From contig VIIQ02000002.1 of NCBI GenBank assembly GCA_007449985.2, positions 992,001 to 1,056,000 of the forward strand: a stretch of DNA of 64,000 nt, in the 5' to 3' direction. Below the pieces are notes generated by a model that searched no databases, had not been told where the DNA came from, and saw nothing but the letters and a program-made list of their open reading frames with translations. The position numbers were made by a program, and so were the translations under genes. Source of the stretch: Desmodesmus armatus (Eukaryota; Chlorophyta; Chlorophyceae; Sphaeropleales; Scenedesmaceae). Positions 38,727-58,858 of the stretch are shown piece after piece (positions within the stretch are counted from its first letter, which is position 1; every line of letters begins with the position of its first letter).

Positions 38727-39321
38727 CTGCGGATTGCTCTCGCCGTGAATTGCTCGCGAAGTCAAAACACTCAAACAGCTCATGAGCTGATCAGCAGCTG
38801 GGGTTGCGAGTTGGGGCTTCTTTGAGGCCCAGACACGCCTGTGCGGTGATCCACACACTGGGGTGTATTTGAACTCGCTCAGCAGAAACAGAATGACAGA
38901 CTTGCAGATACGTGTGTGGGCGTATCTTTTGAGAGTGGAGTCCGTCACTGAGTGCACACCAAGCGGGCAAACCTGCTGTCAGAACCCTGACAATGCCTCA
39001 ATGACTGTGCAATGGGTTGACAGTACTTGGGCATCGTCTGTAGTGCTATGCACAGCCTCCCCACTGTTCAATTCGGCCGCCCAGCACCCCCTTTCCCTGG
39101 CCTGCCATGCCATGATGGCATATACAAATGGTGGACATGTAGCTTGCAGCCATCCAGGTAGCTCAGCTGCTGGCTCTGCTCGGAATGCTACTGATGAGCT
39201 TGCTTTGCACCCTACGTCCGCGTCAGACATTGACAGAACTCAGGGCCAATGAGCTGAGCAGGTGTGCCAGGCTGGCACGCCAAGGAAGCACCCTGAGTTG
39301 TCAAGTCCAGGCTTGTGACCC
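38727..39321. other. Flank left of the mobile elements
   Basis: No convincing coding frame. Upstream exons of the preceding minus-strand gene would be expected here but none with sulfotransferase-like 5'-phosphosulfate motif was seen. Confidence 0.35.
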
Positions 39322-39339
39322 ACTAGTTAGGGAAAGTGT

Positions 39340-39400
39340 GCGGACCACTGGCGGACCTAAGCGGACCCTCAGGCAATGACCGGTGCGGACCTGTGCGGAC
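39340..39400 (+). repeat. GCGGAC hexamer array, left element outer end
   Basis: Five GCGGAC sites at 39340, 39351, 39361, 39385 and 39395, four of them followed by C. Spacing is about one or two helical turns. Likely recombinase-binding sites, by inference from position and repetition. Confidence 0.7.
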
Positions 39401-39750
39401 TCCCTGCCCCCACCATGAGTGGCTCATGCCTTAGCACCCCCTCCTCAATGCCCTCACCCCCCCCAAGTGCTGGACTGCATTCGGCCGCTCACAGCAGACA
39501 GTCACCCAGTACACCTGACGTGCCACCCAAGCACAAGCAATGATATATGCAGCGCGTTCGATCATGAATTTACAAGAGAAATAATACTGCAACTGGTAAG
39601 GGGCTGTGCGGACGCATAACATCAACGACTGAAGAATCGATCAAACTTGGTGATCACAACAACAACTTCAAGATCAGCCAACGACCAACTTGCACCACAA
39701 CGTGGCATCTTGCGCCCCCAAAACAATTATTAACAACGTGTTGCCGGCCC

Positions 39751-42715
39751 TCAACCTTTGCTCCTTTGGTTGGCCCTGCCAGCCCTGCTGCCAGCCCTAG
39801 CCCTCGCCCGCGGCGGCTTCTGCTCCTGTGCCTCCCCTGCTGCCTCCTCCTCCCCCTCCCCCTGCACCTGCTGCCGGCGCCGCTTGGTTCTGCCGGGCCC
39901 TGCAGCACCAGCAGCTGCAGCTGCCTGGCCAGCAGCTGCCAGGCCGCTGCTGCTGTCACTCTCTGCTGCCACCTTGGTGCCCTTCTTCTTGAGGTACTTG
40001 GTGAAGTAAGCTGAGGGCTTCATCTTGTACTCCAAGTCCAGCGCTGCTGCTGCATCTGCGTAGCTGGCGATATCATCGGCACTGTGTGCTGCTGTCAGCT
40101 GCTTGGCCCTGCCCTTCACAACTCCCCAGAGCATCCTGTGGTCGCTCCAGCGGCGCTTGTCACACCCCTTGCGCCAGCTGGAGCCTGCCTTCTCAAGCTC
40201 TATCCGTGTCTGGCTGTAGCCGGGGGCCTGCTCATCAGTGTACCAGCTGGTGTACTGCCGGAAGGTAGAGAAGGCGCTCATTGCAGGCACAGGGCCAGGC
40301 TCAGCCACGCTGCTCTCGCCCCCAGCTGCGTCCCCAACAGCAGCGGCAGCAGCACCTGCAGCAGGAGGTATCTGCTGCATGCCTGCCCCAGGTGGCGCTG
40401 GCCCCAACATGCCTCCCAAACCCTGCCCTCCCTGCTGCTCTGAGAGCTTTCCTACGATGTAATCCCCCAATGCCACCATGACCTGTGCTGAGCGCCCCAT
40501 GTCTGACCTGTAGCCAAGCGCTGCTGCTGTCGCAGGCAACCTGCTGATCGTGGGCTCCAGGAACCCAAAGGGGTTGCCACTCAGCTGCAGGGCGGGCTGC
40601 TGAAGAGCAGCAGCAGCTTGCAAGACAGACTGCTGCTGCTGCTGCTGCTGCCGCTCCTGCTGCAAACCAGCCCCTGCATTGCTGGCCACCTGCTGCTCAA
40701 GGCTATTCAGCAGTGCGAGCCCTTCTGGGCCAACATGCGACCGCAGCTGCTGCAGCAAAGCAGCAGTTGCCTGCTGCTGCTGTCCCTGCTGTTGCTGCTG
40801 CGGCAGCTGCTGTGGCGGCTGCTGGAAGACGTGCTGCTGCTGCTGCGGCAGCTGCTGAAAGAGCTGCTGCTGTGCATGGAGTGGCCAGCCTGCAGCCGCT
40901 GCTGCTGCTGCTGTAGCTGCTGTGGGACCAGGCTGCTGCCAGAGCTGCTGGTTGCCCATGGAATGGCCAGGCTGCAGCCGCTGCTGCTGCTGCTTCAGCT
41001 GCCGTGGGACCAGACCTGCACGCCAAGGCTGTGCGGCACACATGCCAGCAATGTGCTGCTGCTGTTGCTGCTCCTCCTCCTCACCCAGCCACCAGCTGTG
41101 GGTGGGATCACCAGGGGAGACAGCTGCGCGCGCAGCAAACTGTGAGCGAGGCCTCATCCCCCCTGCCGGTGAGTAGAACATGGGGCTGCTGATCATCTGC
41201 TGCTGGTGGTCTGGCTCTTCAACCTCATACATCTGCATGATGTCAGCTGCCTCTTGCCTGCTGTGCTGTGCTGGCCCCTGCTGCTGCTGCTGTTGTTGGC
41301 GTGGGCGGCGCTGCTGCTGCTGCTGCTGCCGCGGTGGCTGCCGCTGCCGCAACACACGGGCTTGCCTCTCGGGCATGTCTTCTGGCTCCTGCACATGCAC
41401 AAATGGCACACATGCAGAGGTGATGACCATTGTCAGCACTTTGCCGGCCCAGGTGTGATTGAAAAGCGGTGATCTTTTCGTCATACAAACACTTTCGCCA
41501 GCCCTTCACCGCTGCCATACCAGCTTGCCAACCTTTTCAGGCAGCACAACTAAGTTTGAATAGCTGGTAGGCGAGCGCCTGCTGTCTCTGCAGAAGAAAC
41601 CCGTGTGAAGTGCACTCCCGCTCACCTCGCTTTCTGCTGCCGGCGCCTCCTCACTTGCCCCATCTGCCTCTGCTGCTGCCTCTTCCTCAGCAGCAACAAG
41701 CTCCTCCCGCTGCTGCTGCAGTTCTGCCAACTGTGCAGCACTGAGGCCATCTGGGCCGCACTTCAGCTGCTGCAGGATAGCAGCCAGTTCCTCTTCTTCA
41801 GAGACGGGCTGCTGCTGCCTCTGCTGCTGCAATCCGACCTGGCCATGGCTGCTGCCTGCAGCTGCTGGTGGCGGCTCGCCTGCTGCTGCTGCTGCTGCTG
41901 GTGGTGACAACTCGGCGGCTGCAGCCGCAGTCGCCGTAGTGCTGCTGGCCTGCAGCTGCTTCTGTTCCTCTTGACGCAGCTCCAGCAGGCCCTGCTGCAA
42001 CTGCTGCTGCATGTCTGTGACACCCTGAAGGGCCATGCCAAGCATCTCCTTCTCAGTCACAGGCTTGTCCACCCAAATGGCACCACTGTCCTTGGCCAGC
42101 TTGAAGCGGCGCATCTGGTCCCTGAATTGATTCACAACACAACAGCAGTGGCAGGAACAGTGGCAAAGCAGCGCACTCCAAAAATGCAAGCACAGCATGT
42201 GTGAACACCATGGGTTGCACGTAGGGGCATGTACAAAGCCTATGGCCCTTACCCCCCCCCCTCCTGCATCTGCTTGTGTGCTGTCAATCTTACCTGACTA
42301 GTGCTGCCTGTGGTCCCTTCAGCAGCAGGTTGCAGACAGGGTTGTTGGTGTACTTGGTGGGCCTGTCAGGGTCTGTCACCACCTCCAGGAAGTCCTGCCA
42401 CACCACGCCTGCCAGGTATGGCAACAGGTCTGCCATGCCCCTTGCTGACACCGGCACTGGCCGCCCAGCGGCATCTGCAGCTGCAATGCTGGCCCTGAAG
42501 GCAGCTGCACAGGGCAGCAGCAGGTCGATGATGGGCTGTGGTGTAAGGACCATGAGCGCAGGCCTCCAGTACTGGTCGTAGGGGTGGGCGTGCGGCCAGT
42601 TGCCCATGACCAGCAGGGTCGAAGGCTTGAGGGCTGTCAGGAGGTACACCCTTGTCAACGAGTGCAGGCGCCAACCGCAAAAGCGGCAGGTGTCCTAGAA
42701 ACACATACACACGCA

Positions 42716-42746
<31 letters not shown>

Positions 42747-45322
42747 GCAGCAGAGTGGCACTTTTGTGTGTGCAGCTGCATCACCAGGGCGTGTAAAGTA
42801 TCCTAGCTGAACGAGCATGCAGTATGCATCATAGCTACAGGTGTAACAAGAATGCATGTTATGCCCATGTCTTGTCCCTCGCCCACTTGATCCCTCCAGT
42901 ACCCACCTCCTCAGGCACGCCTGCCTCGTCTGCTTTGCGCACAGTGTGGTACCGGGGGGCATGTGTCACCTTCTTGATGCGTATGTCCAGGGCCATGTAG
43001 ATCTTTGCGAACCGTGCCCTGTGCCCGCCGTACGACAGGCTGCTGCTGAAATCCTTCCTGCCGGGCCAGATCTTCACAGTCAGGAAATCCCGGCTGCAGG
43101 GGTCAGGGAACACCTCACCGCCCAGTGTGAAGCGGGTCACAAAGTAGCGGCCGAGGGCAGACTGTACATCTAGCAGCGGCTCCTTGTGCCTCAGGCAGCC
43201 CTTGGTGGCCAGCTTGACACCTTGGTTCTTGCCAAAGGTCTGCAGGATGCCGATCACCCAGCAGTGTGCAGGCCCTGAAGACATGCAAGCAATAACAGCA
43301 GCAACATGTGTCAGAACCTGTGCCACAGGCTTGCAACCAACAGCGTGGCTGCAGCTACTAGCTTAGTAAGCAAAGCAAATCCCTTGTATTGAAAAAAGCG
43401 TTCTGAAGTTGGCATGCAGTATCTCACCTATGCAGGTGCGCAGCAAGGGTGGTGTGAGCTCACACAGCCGCCGCTCTCGCACGTCATCTCCCCTGCCTGC
43501 TGTGAAAGACATGGCTAGCAGCATGCTCAGGTCCCTGGCGTCTATGGCCTTGGGAGAGGCCAGCGAGTGGTCAGCAATCTTCACAAGGTCGTCCCTGCGA
43601 GTCACAGCACGGCAGCAAGGGCGTGCACAGGGAAACAGCATAGGTCAGTGGGAGGCATGGGTAGATCTGCCACAGCATCTGCACAGCTGCTTTGGTGCAT
43701 GCTTTGCGGTGACAACATCACATTGCTGTTGACTGCACAGCTCCAGCATGCACCTCTCCTGCCCTTGAGCATATCTTGGTTGGGATGTGGGAAGTGGCTG
43801 GCATGAGCGCTTGGAGCTTCATAGCTACAGGTTTGTATGTATGCATGCATGTAGGCATGTATGCAGGTGATGTAAGCGTAAGCGCATCACTCACGTGCTG
43901 AAGGTGGATGCCAGGGTGTTGTCCTGCGGGTCGAGGTGTTGCGGATCAATCTGCCCTGCCTGAAGCTTGCTGCGCGCCTAGCACTGCTTGCACACCTCAG
44001 CATACACTTCATATGCCAGCAGGCCGCGCTTGGGCATGATGCTGCCACTGCTGCCGCCCTTTGCACGCAGTTGCAGGCCACGGCCCCTGAACACCGCCTG
44101 CAGCATGCTGTGGACCCTCTTGAACATGGCAGTACCTTTGAAGTCTGCTGCCTCCTTGCCCTGCCACATCACAACACAACAACAAACATAAGTGTGTCAG
44201 TTGCAGCTGACAAGTGTCTAGGCGCTACCTTGGCCTGTTGAGTGTGCCCCATGCCGCTGTCACACCGGCAGTGCAGGTAAAGAGTGTAAGCCGCAACACA
44301 CACCACTTGACTTCCTCACCTTCAGGCCTGGGTGACCCTCCAGTATGTACCAGGTCAAGAACCTGGCGGCCAGGTCAGGCCCATCTGAGCCGGACAGGGT
44401 TTCGTCAAAGGGGTTCTTGCGTCGCACGGGGGGCTGTCCAGCAGTCATCTGGAACTCGCAGAACGCCTGGAACACATACAGAGGCACCAAGCGCAAAGTC
44501 ACTAAGGCGTGCAGCTAATGGCAAGATACATTGTGCAAGACATGCACATGCTTGTGACATTCACCAGCCAACGGTCGCAAGTGTGGGGAGTGGGTGTGCT
44601 GTTCTACTCAGCCGCTGCCATGCTGTGGTTGTCTGAGTTCGCGTGCACTCACCACAAGATGCACGCGGAGGCCCTCATACTGGCCTGCAGTGTTGTTGTT
44701 CCAGGCCAGCCGTCGCTTCTCCACCAGCTGCTTCACCTCTGCTGGTGTGTATCTGCAGCAGTGCCAAGCATCAGGTGTGTTTTGGGTGTGCGTGCTGGCT
44801 GGAGGAACAAACACAAACGAAAGTTGTGAAATAGCATCAGCAACACTGCCTCAACACTTGTAAAGCAGCAACACCATCACTTCCTGTTCCACTTTGCCAA
44901 CACCACTAACAGACATGGAACCAACAGACATGGCACAGGCTTGCTGTCTGGCTGGGTCATTACCTTGCTGAGGCTTTTGGCTCCCTGCGTTGCTGGTGTG
45001 CATCTGCCTCCTGGTCTGACTCCTCCTGGTCTGACTCCTCCTGGCTGACCTCTGACTCGTCGAGAAGGCCACCCAGGATGTCGTCAGCAAGCTCACTGTC
45101 TGCTGCTGTTGGATCCCACTCGCCATCCTCCAGGTCTTCCAGCGGCTCTGGGTCGCTGTCATCGTCAAACTGCTGTGCTGCAGCTGCTTTTGGGGCCCTC
45201 TTGCGCTTTTGAGGAACGTGTGCATCATGCTTGGCATCCTGCTCCTGCACCTGTGCTGCTGATGGCTTTGCAGTGCCTGCTTTGCTTGCAGGAGCTTGTT
45301 TGCCTTTGCTGCCCCGAGCCAT
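39751..45322 (-). pseudogene. Crypton-like tyrosine recombinase with one in-frame stop
   Basis: Nine exons join in phase: 45322-44964, 44752-44653, 44466-44320, 44160-43895, 43594-43428, 43274-42907, 42694-42294, 42121-41626, 41388-39751 (TGA), 1314 codons. Order: Lys-rich start and acidic region (residues 1-119); recombinase core with Arg330 (GRGDDVRERRL), His451-x-x-Arg454 (THAPRYHTVRKADEAG), GNW at 500-502, candidate Tyr508 or Tyr511 (PYDQYW); long Gln/Ala-rich stretch; and a GCR1_C-like domain (FRQYTSWYTDE...SSWRKGCDKRRWSDHRMLWG) near 40100-40280, then a basic tail. Codon 263 is TAG (43978-43980), with the frame open on both sides. TAG is a real stop elsewhere here (malic enzyme), so this copy is probably disabled unless read through. 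Most intron positions match the right copy. Confidence 0.8.
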
Positions 45323-45992
45323 GATAATCTTAAGGGTCTACACTAGCACGTAGAAGCGGGTAACCGAGCTGATATCGTCTGCACAGATTGAACGTGCTGT
45401 TGTGATGGAGGTTATGATGGGACTGTAGGTGCCACTTCACAACGATACGCGACGATACAGTGCACAAAGGAAAGCCTCATCATAGAAGGATAACATACGC
45501 AGCGCTGCAGCGTTCTCGTTACCCTCACGGGCATGTAACCTGCAAGTAACCGTTTTTGAAACTGTGCGGACTTTGACTAGGTCCGCATGGGTCCGCCAGC
45601 CCATTGACCAAGGTCCGCACTCCGCACTATAAGTACTAGTTCTCTACTGTGGGCGGACAGGGAGTGCTGGTGGGCGGACCCTGGACGGACAGTGCAGCCT
45701 GTCCGTCCACCTTAGGGAGGGGTTCTGGAGGGGTTCGCTGCGCCTGCAGCGCCTGGAAACGCGCGTGAGAGGTCTCTTATACGTATAGGAACAGAGTGCG
45801 CCCGTTATTTGCAGCAGCGCCGCTGTACTGGGGAGGTGACAGCGGCTGACTCGGGTTTGGGCCCAGCTGTTCCCCCGTGGCTGTTCAGTATGACAACGTC
45901 TATCTTAAGCATCCATGCAAACTTTTTGCTGGCTTTGGGCGCGTTACAGTGCATGCCTGGCTTACATGGATTCCTAATTCAAACGATCGAAC
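45323..45992. promoter_or_regulatory. Shared region between the two divergent recombinase genes
   Basis: This 670-bp stretch lies between the two start codons. It contains the central hexamer array and a TATA-like CTATAAG at 45627-45633. Both promoters must lie here if the genes are expressed. The proposed junction of the two elements is near 45640. Confidence 0.55.
45566..45708. repeat. Central hexamer arrays, inner ends of both elements
   Basis: Left half: GCGGAC at 45566 and GTCCGC at 45581, 45591 and 45613, the inverse of the left outer array. Right half: GCGGAC at 45653 and 45674, GGACGGAC at 45683 and GTCCGTCC at 45701, matching the octamers of the right outer array. The two halves thus use slightly different motif families, with the switch near 45640. 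Confidence 0.7.
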
Positions 45993-48900
45993 ATGCCAGC
46001 AGCTGGCAAGCGCCAACGCCGACCTCCAATCAGATTTCAAACCTCTGAAGACACCACAGCACCTCCTCAAGCAGATCGGGACCAGCAACAACGCAGCAAG
46101 CCCGGCAGGAGGTCTGTTCCTGCCTGGGGTCAACAACCAGCAGCTGCAGCTGCAGAGGACAGTTTCGAGGAGTATTCTGCAGACGAGGAGGCATCAGACA
46201 GTGATGAGGATCTCAGTGAGCAAGGCAGCGAGGACGACAGCGAGCATGAGGGTGATGACTGCTCCAGTGATGATTGGGACGCTGCTGCTGCTGTTGGCGG
46301 TGGCCTGTGCCGGTGAGCTGTGGATTGCAGCAGAAAGCAGACACTGCTGATTGTATGCCAATCACTGATGATCAGTAATTGAGCCTCGTATGTGGTGTTG
46401 CAGACCCCTGGAGTCCCATCAGCTTGGCCAACTGGCAGACGAGGCAAGGGGCGTACTCGGAGCCCGAACACTCAAGGATTATGACACCATTATCAACGTG
46501 CTGGAGGTAATTGAGGCTTGCTACACTGACTGACGTTACAGACATGCAAGACCCCAGGCACATCCAACATGACAGCAACTGCCAGGGACTTGTGCATGTG
46601 CCAACTGTGTGCTGCTGCTGACTGCTACTGACTGCTGCTGCTGCTGGTGCTGCTGCTGCTGCTGCTGCTGTGTGCTCGTTGCTGCTACAGCGTTGGTATG
46701 CCGCAGACGGCTACCAGGCTAGGCACAAGAAGCAGGTCAAGGCAGCAGCACTGGATCTTGGCCGCATGTCTGACATGCAGGTGGCCAACCTGTGCTCCCG
46801 CTTCTTCACGTGGTATGTGGTGGAGGGCAGGCCGAGGGACCCCCTCAAGGGCGGCAAGGAGGTGAGGAGTGAGAGCTGAGCTTCTGTTTGTCCAATGCCG
46901 CTGCCACTGCAGTTGCGACAGCTGTCAGCTGTCATGTTATGCAAACTACACACACTGTAGTTTGTGGGTCCCAGCACAACACCTGCCTCCACACGGCTTG
47001 GTGACAGCATTGCAGTGCATCTTATGTTTCACACACTAACCTGCCTGTGGTGAGCAGTACAGGACAGTTTTCATTGGTGGTTGACAAAGCGGTGGTTGCC
47101 CAACTGCACACTTGCAGGTTCCAAAGGGCCAGTTGGGTCGGTCTGCTGCTATGAAGGTGCACTCAGCGCTTCAGTTGCACCTGATCACCATGCGCAGAAA
47201 GGCAGGTCGGCCGAGCTTCCAGCTTGCTGCGACAGAGCCTTACAGCGCGCTGTACGTCGTGTGGTGCTCAAAGAAGCGTGACAGGGCCATGGGCGAGGCA
47301 GCAGACGAGCAGTGTGAGTACAGGGCAGCTGTGGTGCACACCAGCTTTGGACGTGACCCCTACGTGCAGGGTGCGCATGCCATGCTGGCCTCCAGTGACC
47401 CACAGCAGGCCAAGCTGCTCAGCATGTACACTGGGCAGGTGCAGATGGTGGCACGAGGTGACGACCTGCGGGGGCGCAAGCTCAAAGACCTGGGCACGCG
47501 CAACCTGGCTTGTGTGGGTGAGTGCTGCTGATGAACTGCAGTGCTGGTATCACGTTGCACAGCTGTTGAAAGCAGGGCAACGAAGCAACCGCCTTCCTTC
47601 CACAGACATTTTGGAGAGTTGTGTTGTTGCTTTGTTAGGTCATGAGTTGTCTTTTCGGTTTGCGCCGACAGCCAACCTTACAGCCCTATACCATGTACTG
47701 GCCACTCCTGAAGCTCGTCGCCTTCCCTTGACCCAGTAACTCTGATCCTGCTGAACCCACACCTTGTGCAGGGCCCTCTACTGCTGTGGCACTGACCATC
47801 CTGCAGCCGCCAGCTACCGGCAAGGCCCTCAAGACGCGCCCCGGCTACAAAGGGATGCTCCGTGGCAAGCTCGCAGCGCTGTGTGGCATTGGTGCCCTGT
47901 TCCGGTGGCTGTCCGTGCGCCTCGCTGTGCTGGCTGAGAGCCTGCCCAGGCCCGGCACTGAGCAGTTCAAGCGCTTCTATCTCTGGCCAGGGCGCAAAGG
48001 TGGGCGTTACGCCGCTTGCACACCGTCCTTTGCAGCCCTCGAGGTGTGGTTGGTATCCACGAAGTCACTGCATACTGATTTTGCCATTGCAGCTACTGTG
48101 ATGGTATTGTGCCTTGGCCTTGTAAGTGTACATTATTGTTGATGTGTTGGGCCTTGTAAGTGTACATGATTGTTGATGTGTTGCTGACTGTTGATTACAT
48201 GTGTGCATGTGTAGGTGGTTTGATGTCCTACACGACCCACGCCAGCCACATGAGGGAGCTGTTTGGCAAGCTGGGGGTTGACACTACGAAGCTGACGCAT
48301 GAGCTGCGTATCTTCGCTGCTCAGCTCCTCTACGAGATGGGTGTGCCCCTTGAGGTGAGGCCAGTTTGTCACATGCTGTCCCGCCAAAAGCTGTGCAGTA
48401 GCGCATGTTTCAACCCCCGCTGTGGCTGTGTTTGCTGTGTTGCAGCACATACCAGTTGCAACTACAATTGTGGCGGTACACTATTTGAGCTGTGGCGCGC
48501 TTTGTTGACCCACACAGGAGGTGTTCACTCCAGCTTACGCCTTTTCCCCGCTGGCATACATTCATGTTCACACTACGATGCTGTTTGCTGCAAGCATGGG
48601 CATATGCTTGCTCTACACCCAAATGGGTGGTGGCTGATTGTTCTGCACATGTGGTCCACCTCCGTGCAGGTGATTCAACGCATTGGTCACTGGCTGCTCG
48701 ACGCCTTTGGCACAGCCTACATTGTGCCCGGCTTCACAGCAGAGGCCCTACTTGCCCTTGCTTTCTGGCCTGGGGCAGCACAGAAGGACTTCACCGGCTA
48801 CTGGGCTGAGCGCTTCCATGTTGCAGTGCCAGAGCAGCTCATCCAGCTGGTCATGCCCGGCCTGGCCGCCCTGGAGGAGGAGAATAAGCAGGCAGCAGCA

Positions 48901-49393
48901 GCTGGCAAGCCCAACAAGGCAGCCACACACTTTGCCACAGTGGTGCGCATGGGTGGTACTGTGGTGGTGCAGGATGCCCTGGTGTTGGCAGACGAGTCCA
49001 GCAAAAATCCTGTGCACGCCATGCTGCTGAAGCAGCAATCCTTCCAGTGAGTGCCGACAGGGTCCGACAGCATGGGATCAACTGACACATGGCTGCATTT
49101 ATTTGCTGCCTTCCTGCTTGTGACTCAGCAAGGCTGCGGGCCAGTCACGATGGCTGTGCATCAGTTGCAGCTCAGCTTGCTACATGGTGCTCACACAGAT
49201 ACTCATGTTTGCGTCGTGGGCGTCCAGCCTGTGCATTTAGAAAAATCTGTGTTGAGAGGCCAAACATGCACAACAGCCACTGTGACAGGGCTCCTGACCT
49301 TGGCACAGCTTCGTTGGTTGTGTGCAGCCAACGGCGCTGACAGCATGATCGGTTACATGCAACGACTCTACAACCTGCCGGTCAACTTCACTG

Positions 49394-49424
<31 letters not shown>

Positions 49425-51723
49425 ATGTTGTGCATTGCTCTTTTTGCAGGGAGCTCAAGTTGGACTTCCAGTCCTTCCAGAAGCTTGGGGGCTTCCAGTC
49501 ACAGCAGCCTCGCTCGATGAAGGAATTAATCGCACAGCAAACCCAGCAGCTGCAGGATCACATTGTGCGTACCTTCACAGCAGCATTCAGTGGGCACGCG
49601 CCGCCCCTCAACATGACCCCGCAGCTGAACTGGTCAGCGATGCAGCAGCAAGTGCAGGAGGCTGAGGTGCTGCAGCAGCAGACCAGGGCTTTCCAGCCGG
49701 AGCCAGTGGATGCAGCAGCTGAACTGGCCAAGCTCAGCAGCATGGCAGCGGGCAAGGCAGACCTTTCGCAGCAGATCCTGCAGCAGGTGCGGCAGCAGCA
49801 AGACGTGCTGGCAGCACAGGACAGCACTGAGTCCTCTGTATCCGAGCAGGACAGCGACACAGAGGATGAGGAGCAGACAGCAGCAGGAGGCCCACCGGCC
49901 AAGAGGACTCGAGGTGCAGCAGCAGCTGCGGCGGCGGCAGCAGCAGCATGCGCGCCTGCATCACCAGCAGATGCTGCTGCTGCAGTAGACATCCCTGCCG
50001 CAGCGGCAGCAGCAGGAGCAGCAGCAGACATTGCGGGCGCCTCTTTGGCAGCACGTGCTGCTCCAGGCACACTTCCCTCAGCAGCTGCGGAGCGGCAGCA
50101 CCAGCTGCTGCTGCTGCCGGTGCTGGTGCAACAGGTGGTCGTGCTGGTAGCGCTGAGGTACAGTGGCAGTATGAGGTACAGGAGCCTACAGGTGCAGGTC
50201 CATCAGCCTTCACCACACCCAGCGGCAAGAAGCACACAGCAGAACAGCTGTACAGCAGGAGTGAGCACACCCTCACACCAGGGGGCGCACACCAGACGGC
50301 GTTCTTCACAAGTCGCCACCTGGAGCACTTGCGGGAACAGCACCAGCAGCAGCAGCAGCAGCAGCAGGGAGGGGGCAGCAGCAGTCAGCTGCCACTTGTA
50401 CCCTTCATGCAGCAGCAGCAGCAGATGCTGGACTTGCTGCGCCAGCTGGCAGGTCAACAGCAAGGTGCTGCCGTCCCAGCACAACAGCAGCAGCACCCTG
50501 CGGCTGCTGGTGCTGGCAGTCCGGGCGGTGGCACTGAGGTTGAGCAGCTGCGCCAACAGCTGCAAGCAGCGCAGCAACAAGTGCAGCAGCTCACACAGGC
50601 CCAGCAGCAAATCCAACAGGCTGCCGCAGCCCAGCAGGTAGGGGCCATGAGCAGTCAGTACGCCAGCAGGATGGGGGCTGTGGACCCGCTGGGCAGCATC
50701 ATGCAGCCCTGGATCGCTGCTCAGCCAGGCCTCAATGCAGTGCTGGGTGCGGCCAACAACAGCTCACTCCTGCCAGCTGGGCAGAACAGTGGCATTACTG
50801 CAGCGCAGCTGATGGCAGTGCTCGACCTGCGAGACGGCCGGCTGGAGCAGCGGCTGTCTGCTGCTGTGGTTGCAGCAGTGCAAGGCAGCAGCCTCGGGGC
50901 TGCTGCAGCAGCAGCGGGTGGCCTGAATGCAGTGCACGGCACAGCAGCAGCAGCTGGTGAAGCAGTGCCTGGTGCTGGCGCAGAGGCACAAGCAGCGGCT
51001 GCAGCAGCGGCCGTAGCTGGGCAGGCAGGGGCTGATGTGCAGCGTGTTGGGTTCCCAGAACTTAGCACTCACAGCACCATGGTTGAGCTGGCTGAGTGGT
51101 ACTACTGCAAGCCGCTGGGCGACACGGGTCTTACTCCTCAGCAGCATGAGAGAGCTGGCAAGGCAGACAAGCAGCAGTGGAGGGGTGGCAGTCAGGGCCC
51201 ACGCTTCCGACGTTGGGCAGAGTACGTTCAGCTGCTGCGTGCAATCGAGAGGAGCAGGGATGCCCTGCAGCAGCAGGCACGCAGCTCCTCTAGGCACCCC
51301 CACAGCGTGGAGGAGGTTGACAGCATCACAGCAGCAAGGGAGCTAGACAGGCAGCGGGAGCGGCTGGGCCTGTCAGTTTGTGAGTATAGGCAGTTCATCG
51401 TGGGCAGCAGCAGCAGCAAAGGGTACAAAAAGGGCAAGTCGGCTGAGGAGCGGCTGCAGCAGGAGGAGCAGCAGGAGGAGCAGCAGCAGGCAGCAGCAGA
51501 AGCAGCGACTGCTGCTGGTGCTGCTGGTGCTGGTGCTGCTGCAGCTGCTGCTGGTACCACCTCTCAAGGGCAGGGGACCCTGGATGCTGCACAGCAGGGA
51601 AGTGGTGCAGCTGGGCCGAGTCCACGGCAGCCGTCAGCCATGCAGCAGCTGCAACAGGTGCACAGGGAGCGGCAGCACCGGGGGCAGCAGAAGGGCAGGG
51701 GGGCCCAGTGTAAGAAGAGTTGA
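45993..51723 (+). CDS. Crypton-like tyrosine recombinase / GCR1_C protein (one frame break)
   Basis: Eight exons: 45993-46312, 46404-46506, 46691-46861, 47118-47517, 47772-47999, 48215-48354, 48670-49046, 49450-51723 (TGA), about 1337 residues. The N-terminus is basic (MPAAGKRQRRPP) then strongly acidic. The recombinase core has Arg316 (VARGDDLRGRKLKDL), His436-x-x-Arg439 (LTHELRIFAAQLLYEMGV), GHW at 460-462 and candidate nucleophile Tyr471 (FGTAY). A Gln/Ala-rich region follows, then a GCR1_C-like domain at 51060-51290 (MVELAEWYYCKP...QQWRGGSQGPRFRRWAEYVQLLRAI) and a Gln/Ala tail. Members of this class cut and rejoin DNA through a tyrosine, moving circular intermediates; that activity is inferred from the residues. 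The last exon changes frame once, near 50070-50150 in a CAG/GCT-rich stretch, equal to one missing base. All four core catalytic positions are kept. Confidence 0.8.
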
Positions 51724-52704
51724 CATGGGCATGCTGGTGGCTGGTGATCTGGGGGCTGGTAGCAACTTGTTGTGATGGGGTGGTATTGTTTTGGGCTGAT
51801 GTATGGATACGTGGATCACGGTTGAGGTTCAACCTTGAGGTTCAAGTTGTTTGTGAGGTTGATTGTCAGATTGAGTGTTGCTGTACAGATTGTGAGGTAC
51901 GTACGCATCTGCACATCCATGTACCTATGTGCATAACTGTGGTAGGGTGCTATTGGGATGTGGTGTTGTGACGGTGGATTACATGATGGCCGACTGTTGA
52001 AATCAAGGTTGATTGCTGGGTGCTTTTTTACTGAAACCGAGGTAGTTGTTACTTTTTGGTGAGGTACCGTCCGTGTATGCATACAAGCGTTGGACACCTA
52101 CGCACATGGAGTGTGAGGGAGTGCCAGCTGCCCGTTGAGTTGTAAAGTTTGTCTGCACTACTGGGTTGGGGTGCTAGCTGCGTGTTGAGTTGTGATGGTT
52201 GGTTGTGATGGTTGGTTGCATGGCTGGGCTGGCTACATGAAGCAAGGCTGTTTGGCCAATTGGTACGTTGCTTTTGAGGTGGGACGTTGTTGGTGTGGCA
52301 CACACATACACATGTTGATTACCTAAGCACATGAACTGTGATGGGCTTAAAAGTTGCACTTTGTGTTGTGAAGGTCGTTTGCATGGCTGAAGCAAAGTTG
52401 TTGGGTAAGAGGTTGATTGCTGAGAGCACACTGGCGCCAAACTCCCAGCAACGCCAACGTGATCCTACTGTGAGCCTGCGATGCAACTGAAATAAGTGAT
52501 ATTTAATATCCAAAAAACATTACATGGCTGTAGGGTGCACATCGGTAAGGAACATAGAACTCTACAGGAAAACGGTCTCTCATCGATCGAATTGCAGGAT
52601 GCCGAGGTGGAGACATACGTCAGGCTGGACCACGCACTATATCAGTGTGCCAGCATAGTGTGTTACCAACGCGGTTGCTACGCTTTGCGGAGTGTCCAGC
52701 TGCC
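51724..52704. other. 3' part of the right element
   Basis: No coding frame. TGTAA occurs at about 52141 downstream of the recombinase stop, a possible polyadenylation signal. A 'gttgagttgtga(a/t)' phrase with 'ggttggttg' is repeated around 52130-52230. Confidence 0.4.
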
Positions 52705-52746
52705 GTCCGTCCGCCACAGCTGGCCGGTGTCCGGCCGGGTCCGTCC
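52705..52746 (-). repeat. GTCCGTCC array, right element outer end
   Basis: GTCCGTCCGC at 52705-52714, GTGTCCGG at 52727-52734 and GTCCGTCC at 52739-52746, in opposite orientation to most of the matching motifs at 45653-45690. Confidence 0.65.
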
Positions 52747-52971
52747 ACAAGGGAGAACCACAAGCCACAATGGTCACGTACCACATTGTTACAAAAATGC
52801 CACCACCCCTGCCTAAGCTTTGAGCCATATAACCGCTACTGGTGACATCGGCCAGAAATTAAGCGCGGAATGCATGGGTTCTGTGCAGGTACTCCCTGAA
52901 TCACCGAACGTATGGCATGCTTCAGCATAGCTAGGCCGCCACCTGACGTCCACTCTCATGCGTTTCACCAT

Positions 52972-55900
52972 TCATTCGTCTGCTGCATCGCCGCCTGCGT
53001 TGAGCTGTGTCATCTGCACCCCCTCCTGCACACGCGCTGCTGGCCGCTGCTTGAGCCCCCCTGCTGAGTGGCTGATGCTGTGCGAGTTGCCCTGGTGCTG
53101 CAGCATCCCCGCATGGCCTGCACCACCCCCTGCTCCTGCACCCGCTGCTGCAGGCGTCAGCGATGCAGTGTGACTGTTGCCATCTGAATGCATGCCTTGC
53201 TGCACGGCCTCAACAGCGTTGCCTCCTAAGTGCTGCAGCATCTCCACATTGTGTTGGAGCACCTGCGCACCATCAGCAGCGCCGACACCTCACACAGCGT
53301 CAGAAACAAACCCTGCTGGGGAACAATACCTATGCTCATGCCTCCCTGACACTGGTTCTGGCAAGGATGTTGCCAGACACACTCACAAGCCATGTGGTAG
53401 GCCTATCACACACTGACGCTTTACGCATACACTGAGAAAGCAGGCACAGGCTCGAAACACAGGTACCTCTGTCGCCTGCAGGCCAACTAATAGGAACAGC
53501 CGCAGCTGCGCTCATCACACCAGGTGCACACTGCATCACACCTGCACCCTGCTAACACCGACTCCGGTCAAGCCTGCAGCTGCCAGCAGCCACACTCACC
53601 GACTTCAGCACTTTCCCCAGCTTGCCCCAGATGTTCATGGCCCCCATCACCCAGCCCCGCTGCAGCTCCGCATCAACATCCAGCTCATTGTACATCTGGT
53701 AGCCAAACACGAACGCCAACAGGCCCGCGATCAGCAGCACTGGGTTCCACAGCACGGCCATGAACTCGTTCCAGCCCAGGAACATGATGGCTGCCAGGGC
53801 CCAGATGGGCGCTGAGCGCTTGCCCGCCATCATGTTGGCTTGCTGGGTCACCTTGGCCTGCAGACGGGCAGAAAATGTGATGCAGTAGGCGAGGCACCAA
53901 CAGCGCTGAGCGTGGACACACACAGGGTGCCAGCTAGAGCTTCAAACATCTGAGCTCTAGCAACAGTGGCATGTCTCCCGATGGCTCAAAGATGCTTACT
54001 GCCTTGCAGAGCCCGGCTGCAGACAACTCACTGTAGCTGGTACCAGTCCACTAACCTCCAGACACCAAGTCAGGCTGTCTCTGAAGCCCATCCCACACAA
54101 CTGCACACCCAGGGATAGTGCGCACCTGCTGCACAGAGAGGGAGCTGGCTGTCAGGAAGTCCCGCCAAGCCATGCGTGCTTCATGAGGCGCCACCAGCAC
54201 GTCCCCAGCAGGCACGCCAGGCCAGGACGTGGCCGTGGCGATGTCAAAGCTGCCTCTGCTGCCGCCTGCTGACGCTGTACTGGTGCTGCTGCTGCTGCTG
54301 CTGGCTCCATCCTCGTCGTCGATATCCTTGCGCACCATCGCCATAACAGCCTCCTCCACTGCATCACCACCCACATAACTAGGACCCCGCATGACAGACT
54401 GGACAGCACGGCAGCAAGCACCAGACACACTCCCTGTCAGGTTCAACGTCAGCCCAGCCAAAGCCTGGGCACACCAGCCAGTAGATATGACGAGGCCATG
54501 TCATGGTGATGAAGCAACCTGCCTCTTTATGTGTGAGGCATCGCCATTGAGTGAAGTTCAGCCCGAATGTCTGCTTAAGCCAAGGAGACGCAACAACAGC
54601 AGGCAACACAAACCATCATCCCAGCTACACATGCTGTGCTTGGTGCTCACCAGCAGTGCCAACACCTGGGCCGCCTGCCGCCGCGCTGCGCGGGCCAACA
54701 GCGGGATGTTCTCCTTTGGCCGCCACGTGCGGGGTGTGCCCTCGTCGTCCAGGCTGAAGTGCTTGTTGAAGACATCCCGCATCTTGCTCACGCGCGTCAG
54801 CGCAGCCTCCTGCAGGGTACACAGGGCATAACCAGTCAAGCACACAGCTTCAATACAGCTTCAACAAAACTTGGCTTCAAGGCAGCGGCTTGAAGCCAAG
54901 CTTGGCCCCATCAACGACACCTAAAAGGAATGACAAACCCCGTGATACATACATCAGCCTACACCACTGACTTTATGACACGATGGCCAGCACCAGCGTA
55001 AGGCTTCCAGTCCACTGCCCACTGATGTTCTGCAAAAGTATGCATTCTGCCAAAGCGGGGCAACCACTGGTGCAGCTGCCGTGTTCTCAGCAGTCCCCCA
55101 CCCCACCTGCAGAAGGTCCCCGAGCTTCTTGTCTGCTGCACCCTTGAGCCGCCCTGCCAGTGTCTCCTGCTCATCAGCTGTCAGCGTGACACCAGTCAAG
55201 GCTGACGACAGCGCCTTGTGCGCAGACGCAACAGCCTGCAGGATGCAGCATGTGCAGTGTGAGATAGCCTGTCCACGCGACGGCTGCTGTGTTGCTGGGG
55301 GACGTCTACAAGGCCCAGCAAGCAAATAGGCAAATAGGCAAATAAAATAAATAAAATAGGCAACCAGGCAGGCTGGATACCTCCAGGCTGTTGGACTGCT
55401 CACAACAAATGAACACGTGACAGCAACCCTGTGGCAGATGCTGCAGAAGCTGGCAGCAGTGGCAAGTTGACCGCAACAGCTGCAGCGCAATGTCCCGCCC
55501 AGACATACCTGTGTGCGTGCTGAGTGCAGCTGCTTCCAGAGGTCAGCCGGGAAGTTTGACAGCAGCTCCACAGCATTGACTGCTATGATTTTGCTGAGGG
55601 TCACCTCTGTGGTTGCGACTGCCTCATCCACTCGGACCTTCTTGGCCTTGTGAGTGTGCTTCACAATCTGGTCTGCCAGGTGCTGCCGGGCCTCATCCAC
55701 TGCAGTCACACACAGGTTGTACAACCACCACACCAGTGTTGATGACGCAGCCAACCGCAGTGTTTGACTCCAGTGCAACCGTGCCTGCGCAAGGTGCTGG
55801 AAAATATGCATTTCCTTGGCACTGCCAGCTGATGCACGCTTCACACAAAGCTCGCCCAGCACAGCACCCAGGCCCACACATGCATGGAGGGCCAGCTGCT

Positions 55901-58858
55901 GCAATGAAGCAAGGGTGCTGCATGTGTGCGCGTACCTGTGAGGTCAGTGCCAGCAACAACATACTCCTCAGCCCTGCTGTCAAAGCCCTGCAGTGCTGCT
56001 GCTGCTGCCCGCTCTGCTGCCGCTGAGAAGCCCTGCGGCTGCTCCACCAAGGCCACAGTGAGGTCCTTGTCAAAGCCGGACAGCTGCTCTGCTGCCAGGA
56101 GGCGCAACTGTGTGCTGAAGGACGGCTGCAGCTGCTCCTGCAGCGCCTCTAGCAGCTTGTCATAGTGCTCCGTGCGCACATGGCTGTCAAAGTACATGGC
56201 CTCCACCTCGTACCTGCACATCAGCAGGAACGGCAAGCGCGGGGCAGAACACAGTGGCAGCTGTGAAACAGCTTGCCGCCAGCTGACGCATGTGCAACTG
56301 CCAGAAGCAGCAGCGCCACGCTGAGACGCAACATCAATTTGCTTTGTACCCCAGTTGCCCCTAGCATTGCCACTGTGCTATGCAGCAAAAGCGCATCGCA
56401 AGCTAGCAGGGGTTGGGTGCGTGGCGGGCAACGTATGGCAACAGCTTGTGCAGGACTTCAGCACTCACCCCTTCAGGCAGCTGTCCAGCAGGCGCGCAGC
56501 ATTTGCCCCAAAGTCGCGCACCAGCTTCACGCTGCTCTCCTGCTGCAGCGTCGCCCAGGCCTGGTCCTGGGTGAAGTTCTGCAGCTGGTCCTTCATGATC
56601 TCAGCACACCTGATGTTGGCCACCATGATCTGCATGCAGGGCAGCAGGACACATACACATTCATGCTGGGCAACCAGCTGCTTGCAACCCATACGGCCAA
56701 CATGTACCCTCAGGTTGACCACATGCCCTGTCCTGGTTGGACGCAACCCCCAACGTACTGCAAGTGTGCGCCAGGCAGGATGCAGCAATCGCACAGACCT
56801 GCTGCATGCAGTACATTACACAGCCGCATGCATTACACAGCCGCAAGGTAAGCTACAGGTTCAACAGCACTGCACGAGAGCGATATGCATTTTGGCGATC
56901 CAGCTTGTAACACAAGTGCAACACTAGCCCCACATGCACTATGGCGGACGTCCCTGTCCTGCTGGACCCGCTGCCCCCCACCTTGTGTGCAGGCAGGTTG
57001 AGGTCCTTCTGGGACCTGATGATGTCCCAGATGTTCTTGGTGCTCAGCACCAGCGAGTCCGCAGGCAGCTTGTCACCTTCACGCACCAGGGTGTCGTCTC
57101 CTGAAGGGGCACATGCAGGCAAGCACATGAGCGCAGCATGATGCAAGCATGCTGCCGTATTGAGGCTACAAAGCCACACTGACCGCAAGAAGGCTTGCGT
57201 ACACCTGCAACCACAACCTGATGCTGCCACAGCTACCAGCACCAGCACGGGTGCAGTATGCACCTGAGGTATTCCTCAGGGGTGTGCTGGCATGCACACT
57301 CTGTGTCAACACACTGGTGCTGCTCAGCGTTGCAGCCCACAAGCCTCAAAGGAGCGTGATGAGCGGGGCATCCAGGCCTGTCAAGCAGCCTTGGCTCACC
57401 TTCTGGCGTGAACCTCCTGCGCAGCACCACTGTGTCTGCCTTGAAGTCCTCATACCTATCCTCATAGTGAGGCAGGGCAGTGTACTGGACCTGCAAGGCG
57501 AGCGTGTGTGTCGGCAGAGGGAGCATGCATTTGGAACTGTTGAAAGACAGTCCTACAAGAATAGGCATACACTGATGTTGACACGCCATTCATGTATGTG
57601 TGTGTCTTTGGCGCTGGCTAGGCATAACAGCAAGGCTCAGCATGGCCGACTTGTAACATGATGATGTGGTGCTCACTCACCCCCCTGCACCAGCAACGAA
57701 CTGCTGCTATCACATGATGGTTGGTGTTTGTGCAGCTTTGGATACTATACAGCTGCCTCCTGCCTGGAAGGCAGCGCCAACTGCTGCGCTGTGCACAGTG
57801 ACTGGAAGTTTCCTTACAAGGACAATGCTAGTGTCGATGTGCTGACATGCTGGGCACCCACCTCGAAGAAGTCATCAATCTTGCTGTCCTCATACTGAGG
57901 TGGCTTGCTGATGGTGTCCCACATCTTGTGCACGTCCTCGCTCAGCACCTCAACCAGCTTGCTGAGGGGCGTCTTGGACTTGTCCCGGATGACAAACAGC
58001 AGCACTGTGCGGCGTCTGTTGGGCTCTGGTGCAAACAACTTCAGGTTGACCTGCAGGACGCAGGGCCAGCGGAAATGCACCATCAGAGTCACAATCACAT
58101 GGTGAGGTCCATGTGCAACGGGCGGAGCCAGATGCTGCCTGCCCAGCTGCAGTGCTTGCGATTTTGCTTGCTGAGACCAAGGCAGTGTGCTGGGTGAAGC
58201 TTGCTCAGTCCATATCCCAGCTGCTAGTACCCCAAGCCCTGGCCGCACCTGGAAGATAGTCTTCATCAGTGGCTTGCCAGAGCCCTGCTCACGGCCAATG
58301 TCGTGGCACCAGACATTGATCAGCAGCACATCTGCCACGGCCAGGGCAAAGAGAGCGCTCTGCCTCTCGAAGTTGGTGTCGTCCTCACCGCGCTCACGCC
58401 CGTCAGAGCCCTCCAGGTCCAGGATGAGGGTGCAGACCTCGTCAATCTTTGGGGCCTTGGCCAGCCACACTCCCTTGGTGGTCTGCTGCCGGCCTATCAT
58501 GGCGTCCATTTCCAGGAAGCCGGTGCCAAACTGCATGGGCCAGCAGTAATGGGATGCAGCACACGGTTGCTGTTGCTGTTGACTGGCACATGCATGCCGG
58601 TCAACAGAAGAATGCCTATCAGACCAGATGGCATGACCTGGACCCTGCTGCCCGCCATCGCACTACACTTACCACATGGTTCATGAGTGTGCTCTTGCCA
58701 GAGCTCTGTGGGCCCATGATGGCCACAACCTGGTAGTTGGTGCGAGCATCCAGCACTCCATGCTGCTTCACAAACTGCTCCAGGTTCTCAGCCTGATAGG
58801 CGCCTACTGAGTCAATCACCTGACAACATTCAGATTTCGGATGCTGGAGGCCGGACAT
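52972..58858 (-). CDS. RHD3: RHD3/Sey1-type dynamin-like GTPase (ER membrane fusion)
   Basis: Thirteen exons join in phase (2607 nt, 868 aa): 58858-58673, 58530-58249, 58050-57862, 57490-57400, 57100-56982, 56629-56469, 56213-55936, 55699-55509, 55235-55107, 54809-54651, 54398-54126, 53857-53600, 53262-52972. The GTPase domain has the P-loop GPQSSGKST (residues 49-57), the switch TTKGVW, DLEGSDG (about 100-106) and VIRDKSK (about 176-182, the RD base-specificity motif). A long helical middle part follows ([17 protein letters not shown]). Two membrane segments form a hairpin near residues 703-738 ([28 protein letters not shown]), then a C-terminal tail rich in Gly, Ala, His and Ser. Plant RHD3 and yeast Sey1 tether and fuse ER tubules; this is the algal orthologue by motif. 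No frame breaks. The ATG at 58858 is assumed; an upstream exon is possible because an AG precedes VIDSVG. Confidence 0.92.

Follow-up and report, generated by a model that had tools for sequence, protein, structure and literature searches.

Does a pair of recombinase-like genes lying head to head belong to one transposon or to two? The question is raised by a locus in the 64,000-nucleotide stretch analysed here (the window, C2:992001-1056000 of the 116-Mb Desmodesmus armatus assembly; C-numbers denote contigs), where two divergent genes start at 45322 on the minus strand and at 45993 on the plus strand. The starts are 671 bp apart, as against 670 bp in an earlier reading of the letters (the sequence-only reading), which placed two Crypton-like tyrosine-recombinase elements at 39322-52760 and offered two explanations: one composite element with two recombinases, or a nested or tandem insertion at a preferred site. 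We found the elements at 39322-52759, and their core motifs, termini and dispersed copies bear out the Crypton-like description. We consider it very probable that they are two independent Crypton-like transposons of different families, each with one predicted recombinase, and that the left one was most likely inserted site-specifically into the terminal bases of the right one.

The left element occupies 39327..45639 (6,313 bp, gene on the minus strand) and runs TTAGGGAAAG...TATAAGTACTAG, its limits being taken from the limits of the matches and from the flanks of the family's ends (23 left and 28 right ends read, 22 of them paired). The right element, minus its first five bases, lies at 45640..52759 (gene on the plus strand) and runs TTCTCTACTG...GGGAGAACC, as judged from the match limits and the ends of other copies. 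Its first five bases, ACTAG, are displaced to 39322..39326 (plus strand), where they are identical to the last five bases of the left element; in other copies, this end reads CC|ACTAGTTCTC without a break. The left end CC|ACTAGTTCTC was found in five of six members of the right family (C553, C602, C95, C504, and the window, where it is split; C321 is irregular), and the right end GGGAGAACC in all five places read (C321, C553, C602, C504, and the window), with varied flanks. GAACC or CC is repeated at both ends in only part of the sites of this family.

The arrangement can be read to the base. The outer flank of the left element is GTGACCCACTAG|TTAGGG (39315-39332) and the inner flank is TACTAG|TTCTCTACTG (from 45634), so that the junction between the left element and the rest of the right element, read in the window, is TACTAG|TTCTCTA (45634..45646). 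The right-family terminus CCACTAGTTCTC is cut at AG^TT (CCACTAG | TTCTC), with one part on each side of the left element, and CCACTAG precedes the element in none of the 22 other left ends read (C219 has GCACTAG). Nested insertion at a preferred site, one of the options of the sequence-only reading, is thereby supported. Most likely the right element was there first and the left element entered its extreme end later, since it is the right terminus that is split around the left element; the reverse order would leave ACTAGTTA at the far end. An improbable alternative is that circles of the two elements were joined through their shared ACTAGTT and entered as a co-integrate, or that the right element was inserted into the left one. 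ACTAGTT is indeed present in the joined ends of both families, but a right-into-left insertion predicts that GAGAACC at the far end is followed by ACTAGTTA, whereas the window has ACAAGCC there, and a co-integrate needs one more step and has no second case among the copies seen.

The ends of the left family show how it inserts. Left ends read AG|TTAGGG in 21 of 23 cases and GG|TTAGGG in the other two, and among the 28 right ends, 23 have CTAG|TTA, the remaining five being those of the window (TTC), C569 (TTT), C429 (ATA), C187 (TAC), and C219 (irregular). Of the 22 end pairs, 15 carry identical AGTTA on both sides and 7 are unequal; in six of these seven, the odd base is on the side that a crossover placed between AG and TTA would draw from the target, and C219 has no simple fit. 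The left family thus enters at AG^TTA. A simple target-site duplication is disfavoured, because copies made at a staggered cut would start out equal, yet 7/22 pairs are not. The joined flanks of 25 left-family sites were searched for empty versions, and among the matches listed, two sites (C781 and C9) gave matches across the join; all five C781 relatives read have a single AGTTA and no element. The left element at C781 sits in one copy of a repeat that is longer than 120 bp and occurs dozens of times in the genome (L071-L075, on C121, C779, C250, C721, and C328).

Both elements end in clusters of a short motif. At the outer end of the left element, there are five inward CGGAC motifs (39341..39400, plus strand), and at its inner end, three inward GTCCG and one outward CGGAC (45567..45617, minus strand); the right element has three inward CGGAC and one outward GTCCG at its inner end (45654..45705, plus strand) and four inward GTCCG, two of them overlapping, at its outer end (52705..52743, minus strand). 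The 64 kb contain 68 CGGAC/GTCCG motifs, 17 of which fall in the element ends (477 bases in total), 15 of them facing inward; the density elsewhere is about 0.1 in 120 bases, and other 123-base stretches of the window have two at most. Short, mostly inward motif clusters occur at both ends of all three element families compared (left, right, and a third described below). Inspection by eye revealed neither long inverted repeats in the element ends nor an inverted-repeat core in the joined ends of the left family, and a tandem-repeat scan of 39-53 kb returned only short CAG/CTG-type and other small repeats. The terminal clusters are putative arm-type binding sites. Inward repeats at the ends, together with AGTTA on both sides in 15/22 pairs, could also be expected of DDE-type cut-and-paste transposons with inverted terminal repeats and a 5-bp AGTTA target-site duplication, in which the recombinase genes would be passengers. 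We regard this as very unlikely: the 5-mer is nearly constant between sites, unlike a duplicated random target, the seven unequal pairs include six that deviate in one direction, neither protein has a DDE match, and the gene takes up nearly the whole left element, leaving only 424 and 317 bp outside it.

The copies of the two families are distributed independently. Genome searches showed the halves to be dispersed separately, so that single-copy genes lacking dispersed copies, named in the sequence-only reading as a refuting outcome, were not what was found. For the left half, one search gave 23 further places (the best 24 of 532 candidates were scored) and another 29 further exon-7 places, or at least 30 exon-7 matches including the window, all of these counts being lower bounds; the matches begin and end at a nearly constant base amid unrelated flanks. 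The right half has at least three further near-full copies (C321, C553, and C602), one broken copy (C95), and one array (C504). No contig among these copies, the window's excepted, bears both families. That the pair is one composite transposon, mobile as a 13.4-kb unit with two divergent recombinases, accords with genes that abut head to head, leaving no host DNA in between, and with CGGAC terminal repeats in both families, but on the copies seen it is refuted and retains hardly any credibility, since each family has separate copies with complete ends of its own and there is no second pair among the matches listed. Single-copy domesticated genes are likewise ruled out by copy number (at least 30 left exon-7 matches). 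In the C95 copy of the right family (C95:29334-37107), about 5.8 kb of other DNA separates two parts that overlap by about 7 bp at the break, as if another element had been inserted. At L050 (C13:693808-694956), two left-family elements, both at AGTTA sites of their own, point their right ends at one another across a gap of about 0.8 kb.

The C504 array (L087, C504:3100-9100) displays the joined ends of the right family. It repeats a deletion derivative of the right element, of which the outer 351 and 97 bases are retained, in 13 head-to-tail units of 437-438 bp; those that equal the first unit in length are 99-100% identical to it. All 12 internal junctions read GAGAACC|ACTAGTTCTC, which is the product that would be expected from joining both ends of one right-family element. 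The joined ends read GAGAAC-CACTA-GTTCTC, an inverted repeat of 6 bp with a 5-bp spacer; recombinase cores often consist of an inverted repeat around a short spacer.

The left recombinase gene (39751..45322, minus strand) was modelled with nine exons (45322-44964, 44752-44653, 44466-44320, 44160-43895, 43594-43428, 43274-42907, 42694-42294, 42121-41626, and 41388-39751). Its splice sites are supported by the fact that the same model is open, at 1312-1317 aa, in all six main-group copies stitched (C18, C53, C130, C154, C84, and C90). Over about 4.1 kb, the family falls into a main group of 20 copies read, with a mean difference of 0.25% and some identical pairs, and a small group made up of the window copy, C624, C786, and C571, which is about 2% away. 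Unremarked in the sequence-only reading, an in-frame TAG at codon 263 (43978..43980, minus strand) lies upstream of the catalytic residues; the codon is TAG in 4 of the 24 copies read and CAG in 20. All three small-group copies read through the exon model have this stop, and that of C571 is truncated too. Since the TAG is common to copies at different sites, this subfamily probably moved in trans, or else the stop was bypassed. The window copy alone (1 of 23 readable among 24 copies) has Cys (FCGW; 42677..42679, minus strand) next to the conserved Trp; all others that could be read have Gly in its place (FGGW).

The right recombinase gene (45993..51723, plus strand) has eight exons (45993-46312, 46404-46506, 46691-46861, 47118-47517, 47772-47999, 48215-48354, 48670-49046, and 49450-51723) and leaves about 350 and 1,040 bp of the element outside it. 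Its last exon has a frame change near 50.1 kb, which had also gone unremarked and close to which C321, C553, and C602 differ in sequence from the window. Both window genes are therefore damaged, the left by the TAG and the right by the frame change. Beside the right element, two open reading frames on the minus strand (53552-53941 and 55841-56377) match the Sey1 three-helix bundle PF20428 (E of about 4e-10 each); this Sey1-domain gene is likely a host gene.

The proteins themselves agree with the sequence-only reading in their acidic N-termini and Gln/Ala-rich C-terminal parts, and partly in their tyrosine-recombinase core. By sequence, the R, H-x-x-R, W, and Y stand: they are kept in all four proteins aligned, namely, those of the left, right, and third families and P0001, a Tetradesmus homologue of the right protein. 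The catalytic Arg is residue 325 (left) or 311 (right) in the present models, as against 330 and 316 earlier, and in the left protein, the four-way alignment places the other motifs elsewhere. There the H-x-x-R is THAPR (from residue 450) and not HTVR (456), and the Trp and Tyr are those of FCGW (474) and RVYLL (484) and not GNW (500), although which left-protein motifs had been meant is a guess. The right protein matched PF00589 (E 9e-4, 19.5 bits), as did P0001 (E 1.5e-5, 25.3 bits), and the left core matched NDC10_II (E 0.022, 14.2 bits), all three below the curated Pfam cut-offs; the right core matched a PHROG integrase (E 1.1e-4), and the whole left protein had no recombinase match in Pfam. 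The right core and P0001 share 51% identity over 98% of the stretch used as query. Protein searches with either of these two returned the same two proteins only, and the closest database entries belong to Tetradesmus obliquus and Scenedesmus sp.; nothing relevant came out of sequence searches of the PDB. The two window proteins are linked to one another by a match of the left exon 6-7 protein to the right family in the same genome (E 6e-7) and by introns at equal position and phase, as read from exon lengths and the core alignment (left 5/6 and right 4/5, phase 1; left 6/7 and right 6/7, phase 0). The C-terminal GCR1_C-like domain claimed for both proteins was not recovered: neither C-terminal piece had a GCR1_C match in Pfam up to an E of 10, and Foldseek with a 138-aa C-terminal model (mean pLDDT 76) gave a best E of 1.1. 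Both C-termini do share a W-R-x-G...R-W pattern. Genome scans for GCR1_C and for NDC10_II gave no match; the control genomes gave none either, so that absence of the domain is not shown by the latter scan. Neither protein had a Pfam match to reverse transcriptase, DDE, or DUF3435.

The left core also led to a third Crypton-like family, to which it is 36% identical (C202, C26, and C282). The C202 member (L081:2238-9869) measures about 7.6 kb, so that the elements here span 6.3-7.6 kb, with one gene recognised in each. The third family has terminal TGTAAC direct repeats, a 474-bp derivative (C381:38269-38742), and its own motif, GAGTAC, three inward and one outward at one end and four inward at the other (14 in 9.9 kb). 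Its core, spliced by eye, scored 26.7 bits against NDC10_II, just above the cut-off of 26.3. Just outside the C202 copy lies a dispersed repeat (L081:1212-1440, about 230 bp) that has more than 30 matches at 80-98% identity. Another tyrosine-recombinase family occurs in eight places (L001-L008), with open frames of 348-366 aa (351 aa at L001) that match PF00589 above the cut-off, seven of them with equal score.

Several observations weigh against two independent, site-specific recombinase elements. Neither window protein reaches a Pfam cut-off, a protein search found no database homologue for the left core, and a structure model of the P0001 core, which includes exon fragments, was poor (pLDDT 44.5), too poor for a fold search. 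The circles that the proposed mechanism involves were not seen, and the C504 array could also come from unequal exchange after one tandem insertion. The ends are irregular in C219 (left family) and C321 (right family). The relatives of the C9 site (3/3, about 88% identity) have AGTCA and not AGTTA and are weaker evidence because of this one-base difference, and no empty version of the window's own locus was found among the matches listed. Finally, a 90-bp fragment on C571, 89% identical to the left end of the right family, lies about 31 kb from a left-family copy; we counted it as a relic rather than a pair.

Assuming that the recombinases are or were active, two independent elements might have moved as follows. 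Each would be excised as a circle, in which the joined ends would make up an attachment site. With the recombinase bound to the core, and perhaps also to the inward CGGAC repeats, the circle would recombine with a short matching target. The right terminus could have served as such a target for the left element, because its ACTAGTT resembles the left element's joined ends (TACTAG + TTAGGG), and the stop-bearing left subfamily may have been mobilised by recombinase from intact copies. What makes the genome useful here is that its young copies have exact ends, and some of them unequal cores, and that empty sites, a joined-end array, and a nested insertion are present as well; together these locate the crossover and supply ready assay substrates. 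Crypton-like elements are thereby extended to a probable green-algal lineage; no green-algal Crypton was found among the listed titles and abstract openings, a search outside which lie Repbase reports and most subscription journals. More broadly, and doubtfully, green algae may have a Crypton lineage of their own, in which the attachment sites are phage-like (a short core and clustered inward arm repeats, with a motif that can vary between families). Its families would recognise one another's cores, so that the end of one element would act as a docking site for another, and excised circles would give rise to head-to-tail satellite arrays.

Among known elements, these most resemble Cryptons, above all CryptonF and CryptonS. 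The extracts of PMC3212892 (Kojima and Jurka 2011) used here describe Cryptons as having a single tyrosine-recombinase gene, 4- to 6-bp terminal direct repeats, and small non-autonomous derivatives, with neither inverted nor long direct repeats, and as moving through a circular intermediate proposed by analogy with bacterial elements. The present elements likewise have a single recombinase gene, small derivatives, no reverse transcriptase match, and terminal direct repeats of 4-6 bp (AGTTA in the left family and TGTAAC in the third). They differ from the Cryptons of those extracts in their green-algal host, which is not among the hosts of Table 1 there, and in the short inward repeat clusters at both ends, and they are set apart by the many introns of their genes and by the joined-end array. 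The third family matches NDC10_II, a domain of Ndc10/Cbf2, and the same source links this protein to CryptonF; GCR1_C, the C-terminal domain of CryptonF, was not detected by Pfam up to an E of 10. Target-specific families are also known in CryptonV, which is described from cnidarians, with microsatellite targets, a comparison made by description only (extracts of PMC4455052 and PMC8869645). Fungal Starships, as portrayed in extracts of PMC12134995, are eukaryotic elements moved by a tyrosine recombinase as well, with direct and sometimes inverted repeats, but they are large and cargo-bearing and have a DUF3435 captain, whereas the window elements are 6-7 kb long, with one gene and no DUF3435 match. 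DIRS and Ngaro retrotransposons were rejected, there being no reverse transcriptase match and no room for the enzyme in the elements. Phage-type attachment sites combine a short crossover core with repeated flanking arm motifs. The putative sites described here share this plan, with GAGAAC-CACTA-GTTCTC in the joined ends of the right family, and depart from it in the left family, whose joined ends have no clear inverted-repeat core.

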